Positions 3,200 through 51,479 of a stretch of 64,000 bases of DNA are shown here, piece after piece. The position numbers and the translations under genes were made by a program. The notes beneath the pieces were generated by a model. That model made no database searches. It was not told the origin of the DNA and was given only the letters and a program-made list of their open reading frames with translations. Numbering within the stretch: the stretch's first letter is position 1; every line of letters begins with the position of its first letter. Origin of the DNA: Symbiodinium natans (taxonomy: Eukaryota; Sar; Dinophyceae; Suessiales; Symbiodiniaceae); the NCBI GenBank assembly GCA_905221605.1, contig CAJNDS010002544.1, positions 203,958 to 267,957 of the forward strand. Direction: 5' to 3'.

Positions 3200-3944
3200 G
3201 CACCATCACAAGTACGAACGGAGAGCATAACGGAGCATTGCGATAGAAGAGAAGCGTCTTCTCGATTGAGAGAGTCCTCCCATTCCTTCCTGTTCAACCT
3301 TTCAGTCTTTGAAAGGTCTACCATGGCACAAACGGCACAACACAACTCAATTGAAAGCAACCTTATGATTCCTTCTGCTGCTGCGGCTCGAGAGCCATAA
3401 AGTTTCTAATTATTGAGGTGAAAGTGAAGTCGGTGAAACAGAGGTTGCAGCTCAGAGTTTTCAGGCCGGCTGCGCCTGGCACACGTGTTTGTGCGGCCAC
3501 GCTTTCAGCAGCAGTTGAGTCCGCCCTGCCGTACGGTTTTTTCACGCGCGCAAGCTGGCGATCTGCTTCGTTTGGAGTTGCACTTCACTTCTTCTGCCTG
3601 ACCAAGTGGACACCTGAGGCTGGCACAGTGTAGCCCATCAACGTCAATTGCTGCCTCCCGCAGACACCGAGTTTCGAGCCAAAGTCGTGCTTCAACCTGG
3701 ACAATGCATTGCACAGACTGACAGCAAAGCGCCAGCAGCCACGCTGCTCGGTGATTCAATTCCGTACAGCGCTGTGCATCCCAGTCACAAGTTCATGCGT
3801 AGGATGAGAGCATGCGTGCTGTCCTTAGACAGTTTTGCTTCCGGATGCTTTAGACTTTAGACACTTAAGGCAGGCATGCCCGCTGGAACCTAAGCCCACC
3901 ACCAGAAAGTCACTGCTAACGCGGAGGGCGTTGTTGTACCTTCA

Positions 3945-6900
3945 GGATGCTTTCTTCACGACTGCACAAGACTTGCGGATGGGAGATGAGCACGTTGATC
4001 GTCTTTGGTCTGCGTGGCTTGCGTGAAGAATCTTCCTTGTGCGGTCGTGGCTGGGTCCGATGCCCATGTGAAAGTTTCACCTGCCGTCCCGCTTGGATGA
4101 GACTGTCCTGTGCGAATCGATCTTCGCGTCCAACTGCCGCTGCCCGATGAGCTTTGCAACCTGGTATATAAGGGTGTGTTGTCAGATCTGAAGGCATGCT
4201 ACAAAAGAATGACAAGGCCTTTTGTTCCTCCTCTTGACTGCTTTATCCAGTGTGTAGGTGCAGAGATGTGCATAGGGTTTCGGATGAACGGCTTGAGCCG
4301 CTCTTGGAAGCCCGTTTTTGAAGCTCTCTTGAGACTCTTGAGACTCTGACCTCCCTCTGCATTGACTCAACATCGGTGTTGAAGGCTTCTGCCATTCGGT
4401 GAAGAGACACGGACAGAAAGGGGGCAAAGTACTGCACAATACCTGGGTGCCAATCGTGAACGTTCGGTCAGTGATGAAGCAACTTGTGGGCCTTTGATGG
4501 GCACTGTTTCCGAGAGAGCTGCCTTTGCTCCGGATCTGTTCACAGAGGTTGGCCTCGGAAGAATACGATTGCCACACATTGACAATTGCCCATACAAGGT
4601 GTGCCTGGCCCTGAGAGTCCCGCCACTTGACCACTCAGATGAACATCTAAGCATAGCGGTTCCTCGCAGCACCGAAATACTAGGCCGCGCTGACATATGC
4701 TGACTTTCCCTCGTCCTTCAAGCGCTCCAACGAAGCTAGACAGGCTGCGTACCTGCTGCCACTTCTTAGAGGCTAGCCCTCCGATGCGCAGAATCTGCAG
4801 ACTTTCACATGGAAAAAAAGTACTGGGGGTTCTTGTTGTCGGACCTGCAGCTGCAGAAATCGATGGCCAAGTCACGAAGCTGCCTCAGGTGCGGGCTCGT
4901 GGTTGAGAGCACTGAGAGTGCTATTCACAGATAGATGACTTCAGGATAAACCCGTGGTAACGTTTTGTGTCTGATGGCCCAGGTCCGAGTCTAAGCAGGG
5001 CAACCTACATACATACAGCGTGACTCTCGAGCTATCCTGTCCAGGGATGAAATGCCGTGCACATGACTCAGTGGCCAGCGGGGCCATGTCCAGGCACTCC
5101 CGAAACGTCGGTGAGTCCAGAAGTTTGCTCTGCACCTCCCGGTAGTCGCCAGCCCCAGGAACTTTATATCAACACCCTCTCGTAGAAAAAGTATGTCAAA
5201 CACATGCACTTAACTCCGTAAAAACACAACCAATACTCACTCCGGCTGGATGGGGCCTCTGCCCGATCCAGCGAGCCGAGACCACACAGCACTCCGTACA
5301 AAGCGACCTTCGGTTGAGAGCGTTTCGTTCAGAGGCTGAACACAAGGGTTTAGGGTTTAGGGTTTGGGGTTGAGGGTTGAGGGTTTAGGGTTTAGGGTTT
5401 AGGGCTTAAGGTTTAGGAAGATTTCCGCTCAAAGGCCAAGAAGCATCTTGAGGGCTGAGGATGTCCGAGAACGCACTGCCGAGGTCCTGGAGTGTTCCCT
5501 TTCTGTCTTGTGCGAGCGTTTTGGCAGACTCGTATTGTGTCGATCCCTCGGCCGTTGTGCCACTCATTGCAAGACAGAAACGTCATGGCAATCGCATGTT
5601 GCACTAGCCCGGGTAGAAAGGTCAGTTCCGGCTGTTGCCGTTGCATTGGACCGCGCAACAGAGACGACCCCTAGCAAAGAACTCTGCACGGGTGCACATC
5701 ACGTTGTTTTCGTCTTCCATAAGGAATACGTCGAAAGTCATACAATGCAGCGGCGCAATAAGTGGTGTCGCGCCCCCTCCCCTCCGACACGTGCCCCTTC
5801 GAACTACACTTCGTCGCGGACTGAGGATTTTCGCAAGCAGAACAGTTTCACGTTGCTTATGTATGTCAAACGCGTCCAGAAATGGTCTCAAGCAGCCGGG
5901 GAACCTGCCAAAAACATTGTTCAGAAGACTACGCTATGTTCATGCCGTTGGAAGCTTTGCCCAGCCGATCTGCATGCCCAGCTATGCCGAGCTGTTACAC
6001 GTCCTGCGGCTTGACCTGCGAGAAGCTCGTGGCAGCTTCTTTGTACTTGCCAGCGGTCATGTTGTACCTTGGTCGGGGCCATGCGTGGCCTTGCATGACA
6101 TTGATGGCGGCTGGTGGCTGTAGCAGAGCGCAGCACAGACCATATGATGCGAAGATGCGAGACTGGCTCGCTTCGTCCTGTTGGTGTGTTGAACCCCTGG
6201 CTCGACTATTTCTGACTTCAGCATGCAATTGTGTCGTGCCTTGAAGGGAGTGTGGTGAGCTTTGCTGGTGAAATTCTGGATGTCGGAGTACTGACGCCTA
6301 AGTCAGGGGTTTGCACACTACAAACCATGCCGTCAAGGCCAGTAAAAGTCATTTAGCCGCTCTCAGGTCTGCACTGCAGAACACGCAGTCTGATGATCGT
6401 CATGCAGGTAGCAAACACTGCCTCCAATGGTCCAAAGACAGAGCCAGTAGACGCTAAAGTACACTGAAACAAGATGGACGTTAGTCACAGCTGTGTCTGT
6501 TGAAAGCATGCTTTAACAATCATTGCATCTCGATCACGGCCAAAAAAAAGAAACCCGAATCTATGCGTTGCCAATTTTTGTGCCCGTAGGACATCGTAGG
6601 CCCGCCTGTGGCTCTGTGCAGAACTCGCGGCTCCTCGCCAAGTATTTCTCAGCCTCACAGAATCGGGAGATCTCGCGGACTCGGCATGTCTCGGAAGGTA
6701 ACAAGGCGCCGGCAGTCGGGTAGTCGCCCTGTTCCAGGCAGAGGTTCGTGAGTTGATGGTAGCACCTTGCGTAGAAAAGGTGCCAGGTATTCTGCAACTC
6801 CTCCCTCCTACGTAGGAGCAAAGATCGGCGCTGTCGGATGTTCTCCTTCATCTGAGATGCTTTGGCCTGGGCTCGCATTGAGTAGACCCCTTCGGTATAA

Positions 6901-21288: not shown

Positions 21289-23342
21289 TCAAGCTGACAT
21301 CAAGATCTGAGAATCGAGCCTTGGAGGCATGCGGATCAAGAGCATGCCTGAAAATCTTTCACCAGATGACACTCATGAAGCTCTGTTTACTAAAGCAGAG
21401 CAAACTAGCTGCACGCTTGATTCGTGAAACGGCCTGGCCTGAAGTTTCCAGCGAGCTCGTCGTGTTTGTAATGCCGAATTCTGCAATGAGAACATCCTCG
21501 AATTCCAGAGATTTCACTCGCTCGTAGAGACTGTTGACCTGTGCCTCATCCAAGTACGGATACCACAGCATGATGCTGCTGGAGGGCCAGGCATTGTACA
21601 GCTGCTGGACTAGGAACAGGCTCCATGCCATGTAGGTTTCGTACGGTGCATAAGGTGGGTCAATTAAAACCAGTCGGCGACCGTCTGGTTGGTTGCGAAG
21701 ATGTTGTGAAAGCCACCAGAACGAGTTCTGCTGAAGTGCTTCGACTTGTGCCGACGAAAACTGCTGTACATTCGCCTTCAACTGAGTGAAGATATCGGGA
21801 GCCAGCTCAAAAAGAAGCGCATCATCCTGAGGCCTCATCCACTGTAAGGCCACCAGGGGGGATCCTGGATAAAGCGCAGTCGATGCGATCGGCGCAAGTG
21901 TGTCTCCAGAGCTGACGAAGTTCCGGACTGCGCTGAGGTACGATGTCAAGTGCCAGGGAAGAGGTTGACCGCAGTTAAGCAGGCCCATGACCAGGTACTG
22001 ACGAGCACTTCCAAGACTATAGACAGCAGCTCCTGCATGCGTATCAACATATGTGTACGGTCTGGGGTCAGCGTTCATGCACTGCATGACAGCTGACAGT
22101 ACAGAATGCTTGAAGCAATCAAGAGTGCTGCCAGCTTGGGTCGAGTGCTTGTAGTATGCTCTTTGAAAATCATCTGCTTTCCCAAGTTTCCACATTTCTC
22201 CTACGATGTTCAGAGCACTCTGCGCTTCGTGAGCCTTCGTGCAGGCGCCAATAACAGAAGCGAAGCAGAGGGAGTCTGGCTTCAGCCCGATGGAAGACAT
22301 CTCAACTATAAGGCTTAGGGCTCCCTGCCACTGCATCCCTTGCTCGAAGGCTCGGAGTGCTGCGTCACACAAAAGCTGGTCTCGACCGTCTCGCGAGCTT
22401 CGGAAACCCCGCGCTTCTTCTTCTTCTTTCCGATCCATCACTCGCTGGTAGATGGCCAATGCCCTTTCCCATTGGCCGCCCTTTTCGCAAGCATTCATGG
22501 CCGTGGTGTAGCAAACAGCATTGGGTACGATGCTACCCTCTTCCATGGCATCAAGCAACAGAATTGCTTGCTGCCAGACATCTTGACACGCCGATATTGC
22601 TGCGCTGTACGTGAAGAGGTTCGCCCGCAAACGCATCAGGTTCATATCCCGGCAGATCTGCAAGGCCAACGTCCACCGGCTCTGCTCTGACACAAGGAGC
22701 AGAGAACCAAATGTGAATTCATCCAAAGGCAGCAACCGCGGAGCCATTTCAGAACCCAAGGCCAAAGCCAAAGCCCAAGCCCTATTTGCCCTGCTGCAAG
22801 CGCTTACAGCACTGTTGAAACTAATCGTATCAGCCAGCCCATCTGGCATCTGATCCAGCACATTTAGTGCCACTGGCCATCGGTCTTCGCCATCACATGA
22901 GCTGATGACCGCATTGTGACTGATCGCGGTCGGCACAATCCCGTGACAGCGCATGAGCTCCAAGAGCCCTAATCCGGAAGTCCATTGCGCACCCTTGCCA
23001 AGTGCGTTGATGCCGGTGTTCAGTATGATGACGTTCGAACGAAGGTCCTGCCTCGGCGAATGGCTGGACTGTCAAGCAGATCAGAACGCCTACTAACATC
23101 AAATTCACTGTCAGCATTTTTGACAACACTTGCCTTCTGAGATCCGCAAGCAAACGAGCAACCTCTTGCCAGCGAGACCATCGAGCTGCGCTCGACAGCA
23201 AAGAGGCACATTTGCTGAGCTGCAGAGCCTCCGGGTCCTGGTGCTGAATCATGCATGGACACTTAAAGATATGTAAAGGCACAGACAGCAGACGGGCAGC
23301 TTCAGGGCCCCTATTGGTACTGGTACTAGAGCTATGTTTCAT
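21289..23342 (-). CDS. PPR array fused to RlmJ-type 23S rRNA adenine-N6 methyltransferase
   Basis: Exons are 23342-23134, 23051-21439 and 21347-21289. Joined, they give 627 codons (626 residues plus TGA) with the frame kept across both introns. Residues about 40-365 hold about nine P-type PPR motifs, for example AVCYTTAMNACEKGGQWERA and TISFNSAVSACSRANRAWAL, expected to bind RNA. Residues about 366-620 match bacterial RlmJ, the SAM-dependent enzyme that makes N6-methyladenosine at A2030 of E. coli 23S rRNA. Visible motifs are YKHSTQAG (370-377), the SAM site VDTHAG (405-410), YPGSPL (464-469), catalytic DPPY (534-537), LWYPY (565-569) and, after the second junction, SGMLLIRMPP, matching 'SGMIVINPP'. 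The E. coli tail after this motif (about 30 residues) is replaced by a short end. The start is the first ATG in the open frame; an earlier exon with a targeting peptide is possible. A role in organellar rRNA methylation is inferred from the PPR domain. Confidence 0.92.
21348..21438 (-). other. intron 2 of the PPR-RlmJ gene (91 nt, GC-AG)
   Basis: The donor is ACTTCAG|GCCAGG and the acceptor TTTTCAG|GCATG. The seven bases TTCAGGC occur at both ends, so the exact cut is ambiguous within the repeat but the spliced product is unchanged. Splicing restores the conserved SGM-PP block of RlmJ in frame. Confidence 0.88.
23052..23133 (-). other. intron 1 of the PPR-RlmJ gene (82 nt, GC-AG)
   Basis: The donor is AGAAG|GCAAGTG and the acceptor GCCGAG|GCAGGA. 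AGGCA is present at both ends. An in-frame TGA lies inside, so the two PPR-coding frames can only be joined by removing it. Splicing makes LLADLRRQDLRSNVIILNTG, a continuous PPR helix. Confidence 0.85.
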
Positions 23343-48239: not shown

Positions 48240-48665
48240 GCAGCTATGTTGTTCAGCGTGTGCAGGGGTGACCAAAGGTGTGGCTACAGGTGTGATCACA
48301 GATGTCAAACCGCCCAGCTCAAAAAAACAGTGGCCTCGTCCCAGTCTTCATCTAACTCGTCTTCCTCCTCACCCTCCTCTTCCTCACATTCTTCACCCTC
48401 CTCCTCCTCTTCCAAAAAGGGCAAGAGGCTACAGACCTGTTCACTGTGTAGCTCTGCCTTAGAACAAGCTGAATGTGCATTGTGTCCTCTGAAACCGGAG
48501 CAACATCCTCCACCTTCTCCTCCACCTTCTCCTTCTGCTCTTCCGCTGGCCTTAGCACATCTTAGCGACCCGCCATTGCACGGAAATAAGGGGGCCATAT
48601 GCAGCCCATCAACGCAAAGCAAGGAAAGCAAGGCAAGAGCCTTGACATGCCTTGACAAGAGCAGC
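48240..48665. other. low-complexity segment, Ser-rich on plus / Glu-rich on minus
   Basis: TCT/CTC-rich sequence encodes a serine run on the plus strand followed by CSLCSSALEQAECALC. On the minus strand it encodes an acidic run (EEEEEGEECEEEEGEEEDEL). Because the acidic repeat protein lies immediately upstream on the minus strand, an acidic continuation is possible, but a stop separates them. The strand of expression, if any, is unresolved. Confidence 0.35.
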
Positions 48666-50860
48666 TAGACAAGGTCGGCTGGAATGCATAAACGATTCAT
48701 AAACGCGTCATTACACATCGAAACGTTCAAAGCCGCTGGGAAGCGCAGGAACACTTTGCATGAGGTAGCACGAAGCTGTATGAAGCCATGCTGCTCGGTC
48801 TCCGCCTCCTTGACCTCCCCGCTGTGAAAGGTTTCAGGAAGCTGCGCATTGTCCAGATGCGCGACACCTGTCTGAGGATTCGAGCGGTTGAGATGTCCTT
48901 CTTCACGCACATCTGCATCGGCTTGCGCATCCGTCATGGACCTCGCATCCGCGAGTGACTGAATATCGCCCAGCACCTGCCGCTCATGCACAGAGTCTTG
49001 CAACTCCTTCTCCGGAACAGACTCCAAGAGAGTCGTCCCTTCTCCAGGGGACAGTTGTGCAGTATCTCTGGGCTCTTCGACATCCGCCGATTGAGAACCG
49101 GCGGCAGCATCTCTTTCGGCAATGGCGCTCCGACCCAACGCCAGGTCGTCTGACAGAGCTTCTTCTTCTTCTGCCTGCACATTGCTGATTTCTGCAGAAC
49201 CCGCCGCAGGGAGATCGCCCTTCGATGGCTCAGCATGACCTGGCCCTTCTAGAGGTAACGGTTGCGCAGTGTCTGCATAACCGGCGGCAAGAAGATCGCC
49301 GGTCGATGGCTCAGCATGAGCATCGTGAGCTGTCCCTTCTGTAGGAGACAGTTGTGCAATATCTCTGGGCTCTTCGAGGTCGTCTGCCAGAGCTTCTTCT
49401 TCTGCCTGCACATTGCTGATTTTTGCAGAACCCGATGGCTCAGCATGACCTGGCCCTTCTAGAGGGGACAGTTGCGCAGTGTCTGCATAACCGGCGGCAA
49501 GAAGATCGCCGGTCGATGGCTCAGCATGAGCATCGTGAGCGGTCCCTTCTGCAGGAGACAGGTGTGCAGTATCTCTGGGCTCTTCGACATCCGCCGATTG
49601 AGAACCGGCGGCAGCATCTCTTTCGGCGTCGTCTGCCAAAGCTTCTTCTTCTGCTGCCTGCACATTGCTGGTTTCTGCAGAACCCTCCGCAGGGAGATCG
49701 CCCTTCGATGGCTCAGCATGACCTGGCCCTTCTAGAGGGGACAGTTGCGCAGTGTCTGCATAACCGGCGGCAAGAAGATCGCCGGTCGATGGCTCAGCAT
49801 GAGCATCGTGAGCGGTCCCTTCTGCAGGAGACAGGTGTGCAGTATCTCTGGGCTCTTCGACATCCGCCGATTGAGAACCGGCGGCAGCATCTCTTTCGGC
49901 GTCGTCTGCCAGAGCTTCTTCTTCTGCTGCCTGCACATTGCTGGTTTCTGCAGAACCCTCCGCAGGGAGATCGCCCTTCGATGGCTCAGCATGACCTGGC
50001 CCTTCTAGAGGGGACAGTGGCGCAGTGTCTGGCGCCACTTCTGCATATCCGGCGGCAGGGAAATCGCCTGTCGAAAGCTCAGCAGGAGCTGTCCCTTCTG
50101 CGGAAGACAAAAGTACAGTACCTCTCTGTTCTGCAACATCTTCCTTAGTGTCATCATCAGCACGGGATGAGTCCCTTGCCGAAGTCGTGCCAGCACTCTC
50201 ACCCCTTTGTTGGGCTATGTCCATTGCACTGCTGCTGGCAACATGATCTGGGCCAGTCTCATACAAAAGACCGGCACTTCCTTCATCCGTGTCCTCCCCC
50301 AAGTGGTGATGCGCGCTGGTCTGGGATTCTTCCGCCGTCTGGTCTCCCATATGCGTTGTGTTGTCCACGTTGGTATCATCTTCACGCGGTCCATCTCGGC
50401 GTAACTCACTCTGAGTCACAGCATCCTCTTCCGCACCGGTTTCCACGCGGCAGTCAAGTTCTGATTGCGCTGCTTCCGTCTGCAATCTGGAACCCTTTTC
50501 CTGAGAAGCTTCCCTCTCCTCATCGGCCTCCGAAACAGGGGTCTCGTTTTCTGCCACACCCTCCAGAACTCTTGCCGGTGGAGCTTGATCGCTTGTCACG
50601 CCCTCGTCCTCCATTTCATCGAGAGCATGCAAGAATTGGTTCACCCCGCTGGCACTTTGCTCGGCATCCTCGGCATCGGTATCAGGCACAGGAGGCTGTA
50701 CGTCGAGCACTTCGTCGGAAGCCTCGGTGTCAATGCCAGCGTCATCCTGCCAAGGCAGGGCTGACCCCCAGAGAATCAGCCCATCAACAATTCCACACCT
50801 GCATTTAGGCAGATACCGAACAACAGCATACAAACTCATCAACGCATACCAACGCTGCAA
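48665..50860 (-). CDS. highly acidic protein with 91-residue tandem repeats
   Basis: This is the longest open frame in the window (731 codons). The body is extremely rich in E, D, A, S and G. Residues about 270-610 form tandem repeats of 91 residues, with phrases such as DTAQLSPLEGPGHAEPSKGD, LPAEGSAETSNVQAAEEEAL and DVEEPRDTAHLSPAEGTAHD. Two copies are almost identical at the DNA level and two are shortened by in-frame deletions. The N-terminus before ALPWQ has a different, hydrophobic composition, and a GGCAG acceptor follows it, so the true exon may start near 50755 (DDAGIDTEASDEV). The C-terminus (RFPAALNVSMCNDAFMNRLC) is unlike the rest. Probably intrinsically disordered. No family is recognised. 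Opposite-strand open frames here are shadows of the biased codons. Confidence 0.7.
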   Translation of the reverse strand: MQRWYALMSLYAVVRYLPKCRCGIVDGLILWGSALPWQDDAGIDTEASDEVLDVQPPVPDTDAEDAEQSASGVNQFLHALDEMEDEGVTSDQAPPARVLEGVAENETPVSEADEEREASQEKGSRLQTEAAQSELDCRVETGAEEDAVTQSELRRDGPREDDTNVDNTTHMGDQTAEESQTSAHHHLGEDTDEGSAGLLYETGPDHVASSSAMDIAQQRGESAGTTSARDSSRADDDTKEDVAEQRGTVLLSSAEGTAPAELSTGDFPAAGYAEVAPDTAPLSPLEGPGHAEPSKGDLPAEGSAETSNVQAAEEEALADDAERDAAAGSQSADVEEPRDTAHLSPAEGTAHDAHAEPSTGDLLAAGYADTAQLSPLEGPGHAEPSKGDLPAEGSAETSNVQAAEEEALADDAERDAAAGSQSADVEEPRDTAHLSPAEGTAHDAHAEPSTGDLLAAGYADTAQLSPLEGPGHAEPSGSAKISNVQAEEEALADDLEEPRDIAQLSPTEGTAHDAHAEPSTGDLLAAGYADTAQPLPLEGPGHAEPSKGDLPAAGSAEISNVQAEEEEALSDDLALGRSAIAERDAAAGSQSADVEEPRDTAQLSPGEGTTLLESVPEKELQDSVHERQVLGDIQSLADARSMTDAQADADVREEGHLNRSNPQTGVAHLDNAQLPETFHSGEVKEAETEQHGFIQLRATSCKVFLRFPAALNVSMCNDAFMNRLCIPADLV
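49180..50030 (-). repeat. 273-bp tandem repeat (two near-identical copies plus shortened copies)
   Basis: The copies at about 49459-49719 and 49732-49992 are offset by exactly 273 bp. They give the same 86-residue translation even in a non-coding frame, so they are nearly identical in all codon positions. A copy near 49262-49446 lacks an internal segment but stays in frame, and a further diverged copy lies below 49250. Confidence 0.9.
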
Positions 50861-51479
50861 ACCATACGAACATACACATATTGGTCCATGCCCTCGAATG
50901 GGCGGCTGAGCAACCTCAGTTCATCTGATATGACCGTGCAAATCAACGAGACACCAAGCAGCCAAGCCAGGGAACCAGACAACCAAATCTTGGACGCAAG
51001 AAAGGAAGACGCTGGTACCCTCAGAACCATGTCCTTGTCCTGCATACTTTCATCCCGCTCGCCGATGAGCCTGGACACAGCACGCCTACGACACCGACAC
51101 AAGAGCACAGGTAGCCAGGAACAGAGCGCCCTCAAGGCCCTAAAGGCCCTAAAGGCCCCAAGGCCTTTCAATCTCCCACCCTCTCCTCCCAAACCTGGGC
51201 AAGCTCCACGCAGATGAAGAAATCAAAGTCAGGGCAGGTTCTCTGAGGCTGGAACTCATTGTTCTCATCTGGGAAGGTGGCCAGGAGGCGCTGAGCATGC
51301 AGACATGTCCAGACAACATGAACACTCCACATTAGATCCGCTTCTCTGCACCCATGAGGAAAGGAACCAGAGCAACAAACAGCTTCTGGGCCAAGGGCGA
51401 CCATGTCGAAGACGCCGCTCAAGTCTGCAGAAAAGCCATACCTAAGGCGACGATTCTTGCACGACACAGGAACAAACAA
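50839..51479 (-). CDS. hypothetical protein with a membrane segment
   Basis: The first block (about 51190-51460) contains HVVWTCLHAQRLLATFPDEN and RTCPDFDFFICVELAQVWEE, then a stop. The second (about 50850-51090) contains RDESMQDKDMVLRVPASSFL and a hydrophobic helix WLSGSLAWLLGVSLICTVI, followed by SDELRLLSRPFEGMDQYVYV and a stop. An intron between them is implied near 51.1-51.2 kb, where a 9-bp repeat also lies. No family is recognised. Confidence 0.45.
51132..51170. repeat. 9-bp tandem repeat (AAGGCCCTA), about four copies
   Basis: CAAGGCCCTAAAGGCCCTAA and diverged units follow. Read on the minus strand it extends a frame as an A-F-R repeat, probably within an intron. Confidence 0.85.

Follow-up and report, generated by a model that had tools for sequence, protein, structure and literature searches.

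RlmJ is familiar from proteobacteria. This enzyme, also called YhiR, acts on A2030 of the 23S rRNA, belongs to Pfam family PF04378 and, in bacteria, stands alone. In a survey of N6-adenine methyltransferases, RlmJ is described as bacteria-specific (PMC8868631); here, at least six members of the family are found in a eukaryotic genome, that of the dinoflagellate Symbiodinium natans. One of them is located in the window (the whole stretch of 64,000 nucleotides that was analysed), where it follows an array of pentatricopeptide repeats (PPR). The window domain and bacterial RlmJ have in common the family, the presence in the same order of motif X, THAG, YPGSP, DPPY and WYP, the cofactor and essential catalytic residues, and the predicted fold. 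They differ by the position of the window domain after a PPR array, by the changed residues H9, N12, F8 and E60, and by a shortened C-terminus.

PPR tracts read RNA with the N-to-C direction of the protein along the 5′-to-3′ direction of the RNA, following rules that concern given code residues of each motif, and in editing factors the cis-element is found on the 5′ side of the position that is edited (PMC3420917). In PPR-DYW editing factors, PRORP and PPR-SMR proteins, the repeats precede a C-terminal domain of catalytic or nuclease type. The window protein has the same layout, but its chemistry differs. The nearest published architecture that we found is PPR-TGM, in which a P-class PPR array precedes a tRNA guanine-N7 methyltransferase of bacterial origin, in protists including Perkinsus (PMC4029402). 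The window protein likewise has a P-class PPR array and then an RNA methyltransferase of bacterial origin. However, the methyltransferase family is another one: no TGM domain is present among the Pfam families of the window protein to E 1, RlmJ being found instead.

In the available part of a review that includes a screen of P. cordatum, methyltransferase-bearing PPR proteins are reported with their type unspecified, and RlmJ is not named there (PMC12787238). The main text of the genome paper that we guess to be behind this screen (PMC10666404) contains none of the four terms sought, and a literature search, covering few subscription journals, gave no paper with both pentatricopeptide repeat and RlmJ. 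Predicted PPR-RlmJ proteins may already be present in public records, unremarked.

PPR motifs and an RlmJ domain in one reading frame

On the minus strand of the window, a stop-to-stop frame of 570 aa (21362-23071; 21359-23071 with the stop included) contains both the PPR motifs and the RlmJ domain, with no intron between them (Table 1). Because the two domains share one frame, the fusion is independent of splice prediction. In Pfam, this frame matches PPR_2 (3.7e-21, five stretches), PPR_3 (1.4e-10) and PPR (2.9e-09) and, in its C-terminal part, PF04378 (RsmJ/RlmJ, 5.9e-25, 88.5 bits vs. a cut-off of 27). These matches bear out the fusion and the two domain assignments proposed in an initial annotation, which had been made from the sequence. 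When the PDB is searched with phmmer, the best match of the C-terminal part is E. coli RlmJ (1.5e-27), and the N-terminal part matches designer and plant PPR proteins. With NCBIfam, PPR is above its cut-off; the TcmP and RsmD identities were rejected, their scores being far below the cut-offs. According to Pfam, the window protein has no DYW, NYN or SMR domain, and its match to the PPR region of PRORP is below the cut-off.

Joining at GC-AG sites yields a predicted product of 626 aa, from a methionine at 23342 to a stop at 21289, with introns of 82 and 91 bp; the two short introns and the 626 residues of the initial annotation are thereby reproduced exactly. In Symbiodiniaceae, 25-74% of the introns are GC/GA-AG (PMC11453091). 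The frame of exon 1 taken alone has no Pfam match; as to organelle targeting, residues 1-40 of the predicted protein comprise 4 R/K, 3 D/E and 7 S/T (composition count). Inclusion of exon 3 increases the score from 150.4 to 161.4 bits with a profile of 55 bacterial RlmJ rows. The domain had been called near-complete: its motifs are present, but it ends at profile position 250 of 277, leaving out the last tenth of the profile, and the NPPW motif of the bacterial enzymes reads MPPR.

An AlphaFold2 model was calculated from an alignment of the window frame with 20 bacterial RlmJ rows (mean pLDDT 64.1, pTM 0.55). From residue 301 onward, 19 of the 27 ten-residue blocks have a pLDDT of 73-95. The 30 blocks before residue 301, corresponding to the PPR part, have values of 30-67, as expected since the alignment did not cover that part. 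In a Foldseek search with the model, RlmJ structures rank first (6qe5, 5.1e-13, TM-score 0.76 by target length), followed by designer PPRs.

Table 1. Positions in the window of the features of the PPR-RlmJ gene.
Feature	Position	Strand	Basis
Exon 1: predicted initiator Met and N-terminal leader, then a first PPR motif judged degenerate by eye	23134..23342	-	GC-AG joining
Intron 1, 82 bp, GCAAGT...AG	23052..23133	-	predicted from sequence
Exon 2: uninterrupted stretch with the eight PPR motifs and the larger part of RlmJ	21439..23051	-	570-codon frame, Pfam
PPR motif 1, N5/T, code not defined	22931..23029 (contig 226888-226986)	-	own PPR profile
PPR motif 2, N5/D, code U	22832..22927	-	own PPR profile
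PPR motif 3, N5/D, code U	22727..22828	-	own PPR profile
PPR motif 4, G5/N, code not defined	22619..22720	-	own PPR profile
PPR motif 5, S5/N, code A	22517..22615	-	own PPR profile
PPR motif 6, T5/D, code G, less sure (unit of 47 residues, ~12 over the norm)	22421..22519	-	own PPR profile
PPR motif 7, D5/D, code not defined	22274..22375	-	own PPR profile
PPR motif 8, A5/D, code not defined	22169..22270	-	own PPR profile
RlmJ-type methyltransferase domain, encoded in exons 2 and 3 and interrupted by intron 2	21289..22162	-	Pfam, PDB match, profile
RlmJ motif X, YKHSTQAGSTLDCFKH: Y4, H6, D15, K18, H19 kept; F8, H9, N12 replaced by T, Q, S	22106..22153	-	alignment
YPGSP motif with S100 (cofactor contact)	21857..21871	-	alignment
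Motif IV DPPY, catalytic D164	21650..21661	-	alignment
W195 of LWYP	21563..21565	-	alignment
Intron 2, 91 bp, GC...AG, inside the RlmJ domain	21348..21438	-	predicted from sequence
Exon 3: SGMLLIRMPP..., stop codon 21289-21291	21289..21347	-	+11 bits with RlmJ profile

Of the nine or so P-type PPR motifs announced in the initial annotation, eight are counted with a PPR profile of our own, which was derived from 15 motifs taken from the window frame and from a second PPR-RlmJ frame on contig C1729, so that the count is partly self-derived; the ninth, located in exon 1, looks degenerate on visual inspection. The NACEKGGQW and SACSRAN stretches found in these motifs resemble the SACEK motif of core dinoflagellate P-class PPRs (PMC12787238). 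Motif 8 ends about five residues before RlmJ motif X, Y4 being residue 307 of the frame. From motif 1 to motif 8, the residues at position 5 and at the last position form the pairs NT, ND, ND, GN, SN, TD, DD and AD. The code predicted from the rules of PMC3420917 is 5'-?-U-U-?-A-G-?-?-3', with four of the eight motifs defined and the G less sure; since the pair is defined in these four motifs only, no target RNA can be named. The pairs of the C1729 array are NT, TS, ND, GD, SD, TN and SF, and they differ from those of the window in this comparison of two arrays. A common register of the two arrays was sought, and none of 12 shifts stands out (best means of 41.0 over 2 pairs, 40.8 over 4 pairs and 37.8 over 7 pairs); therefore, we make no claim that the two arrays share an ancestor.

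The genome is rich in PPR genes, with at least 185 matches. In the six top-ranking other PPR frames, Pfam gives no credited second catalytic domain. Side matches on these frames (ATP-grasp_4, Flu_B_NS1, Rpp14/Pop5, Clathrin and others) span 16-66 residues; several are over the whole-protein cut-offs with no single stretch passing alone, and all were set aside as chance matches driven by the repeats. Scanning the window or the gene for Rfam families, tRNAs and bacterial promoters or terminators gave nothing useful.

Active-site residues and contacts with the target adenine

The window copy keeps 28 of the 38 positions that are conserved in at least 95% of the 55 bacterial rows. Among the kept residues are Y4, H6, A10, G11, D15, K18, H19, D40, H42, G44, Y97, G99, S100, P101, R109, D112, E118, D164, P165, W195, Y196 and P197. 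The ten lost ones are R5, H9, A14, K32, G46, E60, G64 (gap), P153, P154 and E168; E60 aligns with a G in a gappy part of the alignment. In E. coli RlmJ, mutation of Y4, H6, K18 or D164 abolishes or strongly reduces activity, the cofactor is held by H42, S100, E118 and H19, A14 forms part of the wall of the substrate pocket, and E168 contributes to keeping motif X closed (PMC3814359). W195 stacks on the target adenine and the W195A mutation abolishes activity (PMC9178011). Another cofactor contact, D143, is an N in the window copy. Motif IV is modified in two paralogues, with DPPC in C1729 and DSPY in C117.

In RlmJ, H9 stacks on the target adenine and N12 forms a hydrogen bond with it (PMC9178011). 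In the window copy, residues in contact with the target base or its neighbour are substituted, F8 by T, H9 by Q and N12 by S. Two sets of bacterial rows, having at least one genome in common, were used for comparison with five readable dinoflagellate copies. Every bacterial row has H at place 9 (80 of 80 and 35 of 35), and the five dinoflagellate copies have Q, the 80-row set having been gathered partly by a pattern permitting H or Q at this place and the 35-row set not. At place 12, N is present in 79 of the 80 bacterial rows of one set, the remaining row having V, and in 33 of the 35 rows of the other, where two rows have S; the dinoflagellate copies have S, S, A, S and S. At place 8, all 115 bacterial rows have F or Y, and the five copies have T, V, Y, V and L, the Y of C1980 being not unusual with respect to the bacterial rows. 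C2435 shows L at place 9 in the alignment, its motif X being seemingly split by an intron.

A family of at least six loci and its bacterial relatives

The genome that was searched (759,417,921 bases, 2543 contigs) carries at least six RlmJ loci, on C2232 (the window locus), C1729, C1980, C2435, C117 and C394. The RlmJ part used as a query gives 11 matches: one each at the window locus and on C1729, C1980 and C117, two on C2435, two on C394 and three weak places. PF04378 gives six matches, five over the cut-off (C1729, C2232, C1980 and two on C2435) and one weak. The C117 and C394 loci, which are multi-exon and were recognised by RlmJ stretches in order, are not over the cut-off with PF04378. 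A stand-alone RlmJ was also considered and not retained, the protein and PF04378 queries giving beyond the six loci only weak matches on C2400, C2211, C924 and C1883.

With our PPR profile, 172,205 bases surrounding the six loci were scanned. PPR motifs are located 5′ of RlmJ, on the same strand, in six of six loci, two of which (window and C1729) match the profile by construction. None is found 3′ of RlmJ or antisense in these 172,205 bases, which cover more upstream than downstream sequence. At three loci (C2232, C1729 and C1980), the PPR motifs and most of RlmJ are in one uninterrupted frame; in C394, the frame that they occupy includes only motif X of RlmJ, and later exons carry the remainder of the domain. 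The distance from the last PPR motif to RlmJ, which lies downstream, is ~4.5 kb in C117 and ~10 kb in C2435. The linkage is likely at C117 and uncertain at C2435, where the PPR frame, 10 kb off, may be a separate gene. Pfam finds PPR in C1729 (1.3e-24) and in the C2435 upstream frame (9.7e-11); the match is weak and below the cut-off in C1980 (5.8e-05), and nothing is above the cut-off in the C394 frame (0.16) or in the C117 upstream frames tested (0.077 and none).

The loci also have particular features. The second PPR-RlmJ protein (C1729:682474-684366, plus strand) corresponds to a frame of 631 aa with a fuller C-terminus (NPPP) and, as mentioned, DPPC for DPPY; more PPR motifs occur up to 5 kb upstream of this frame. 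The copy at C117:178450-180140, with DSPY at the catalytic motif, is spread over many short exons and may be decaying or altered. In C2435, the frame with the first RlmJ exons (3247-4524 of the extracted locus, plus strand) starts with a long LLHCCIAA-type repeat, perhaps intronic, and in C394 a short run of a CCCTAAA telomere-like repeat is visible by eye between RlmJ exons, at about 3585-3625 of the extracted locus.

Maximum-likelihood analysis of 61 rows places the six dinoflagellate ones in a single clade vs. the 55 bacterial rows, with a support of 100/100 and a branch length of 1.41. Three of the six rows (C394, C2435 and C117) were assembled from exons by eye, and the tool warns of meeting long branches, so the clade, its inner order and the bacterial donor are to be read with care. 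With these long branches, the 61-row tree does not resolve the bacterial lineage that gave the RlmJ domain.

As for bacteria themselves, an RlmJ match is found in 176 of 299 genomes spread over one bacterial phylum. PF04378 is also over the cut-off in Corynebacterium glutamicum, a control genome outside proteobacteria. RlmJ matches occur in 5 phage and 48 plasmid records, all with less than 60% identity and of the bacterial RlmJ type where annotated. Finally, three viral contigs (IMG/VR) encode RlmJ relatives; they were retrieved with one query alignment, and a second query alignment retrieved none.

Possible roles of the PPR-RlmJ proteins

The reading towards which we lean, by a small measure, is that these proteins are adenine-N6 methyltransferases addressed by their PPR arrays, arising from a bacterial acquisition, a fusion with PPR and duplication, and that different organellar RNAs are methylated at chosen adenines by the different copies. 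The window gene would then encode a P-class PPR protein with a C-terminal RlmJ-type SAM-dependent adenine-N6 methyltransferase. Its PPR array would grip a short single-stranded stretch of RNA and, because PPR proteins bind N-to-C as 5′-to-3′, the adenine to be methylated would be just 3′ of the bound stretch. This adenine would enter the RlmJ pocket, whose mobile N-terminal tail (motif X) follows the last PPR helix with hardly any linker. The corresponding tail of E. coli RlmJ moves across the active site when cofactor and substrate bind (PMC3814359). Such a movement, together with the spacing of about five residues, suggests that the RNA held by the PPR motifs may be delivered at the mouth of the pocket. 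As to evolution, one bacterial RlmJ gene would have entered the dinoflagellate lineage, become fused to a PPR array and been duplicated to at least six copies. Since contacts with the base are changed, essential catalytic residues are kept and the arrays differ, the copies have probably been retargeted away from a sole A2030-like rRNA site.

Guidance of the enzyme by its PPR part, possibly towards a site other than the bacterial one, had been suggested in the initial annotation. This idea comes out strengthened, with partial support overall. Five more loci have upstream PPR motifs on the same strand (at two loci in another frame than RlmJ), catalytic residues are kept with changed contacts to the target adenine, and the code residues of two arrays differ. 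A more ambitious version, which we find somewhat doubtful, is that the family constitutes a natural set of sequence-addressed m6A writers. A captured RlmJ whose grip on its target has eroded (H9Q, N12S/A) would be governed by exchangeable PPR arrays and have been copied, each paralogue having its own organellar adenine, as each PPR-DYW protein has its own cytidine. If the PPR array sets the site, the window protein would be a naturally guided adenine methyltransferase made of one protein, with no guide RNA and with a partly readable code. If true, organellar m6A in dinoflagellates would become directly testable, and the proteins would offer a scaffold for directed RNA methylation.

The chief rival of PPR-addressed methylation, which we consider unlikely, is that the proteins have retained the ancestral job. 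They would methylate the A2030-equivalent adenine of plastid or mitochondrial large-subunit rRNA, the PPR part serving only as a dock that grips a divergent or fragmented rRNA. The conservation of the residues essential in E. coli RlmJ is compatible with this view, as are the observations that a minimal helix-72 hairpin is enough for the E. coli enzyme (PMC3814359) and that organellar ribosomes contain other PPR proteins (PDB matches, e.g., 9gyt). However, six diverged copies seem to exceed the need of one or two organellar rRNA sites, replacements affect F8, H9, N12 and E60, residues in contact with the rRNA loop or target base, and the arrays of the window and C1729 differ. A pattern for the A2030 region, searched in the assembly with 3 mismatches, gave 4 matches vs. 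6 for a reversed control, and no organellar rRNA was found by this search.

It is even less probable, in our judgement, that the RlmJ domain is inactive and serves as an RNA-binding or assembly platform within a PPR factor. Y4, H6, K18, D164 and W195 are all kept in the window copy across a very long branch, and the RlmJ domain is well modelled by AlphaFold2; these facts speak against a dead domain, even if the loss of F8, H9, N12, A14, E60 and E168, the D143 to N change, the truncated C-terminus and the altered motif IV of two paralogues go in that direction. Lastly, an artefact (two adjoining genes, a bacterial gene from contamination or a join made in assembly) could be imagined from the abundance of PPR genes in this genome and from the kilobases separating PPR and RlmJ in C117 and C2435, but it is very hard to believe and, for the window locus, is refuted at the genome level, as both domains are in one frame at three loci on different contigs, PPR motifs are joined to motif X at a fourth, the introns are readable as GC-AG and the six copies are all distant from the bacterial rows.

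Elsewhere in the window, a minus-strand frame of 751 aa (48665-50920), with no Pfam match to E 0.1, contains many acidic repeats and coincides with a tandem repeat of 273 bp (2.2 copies, 99% matches).
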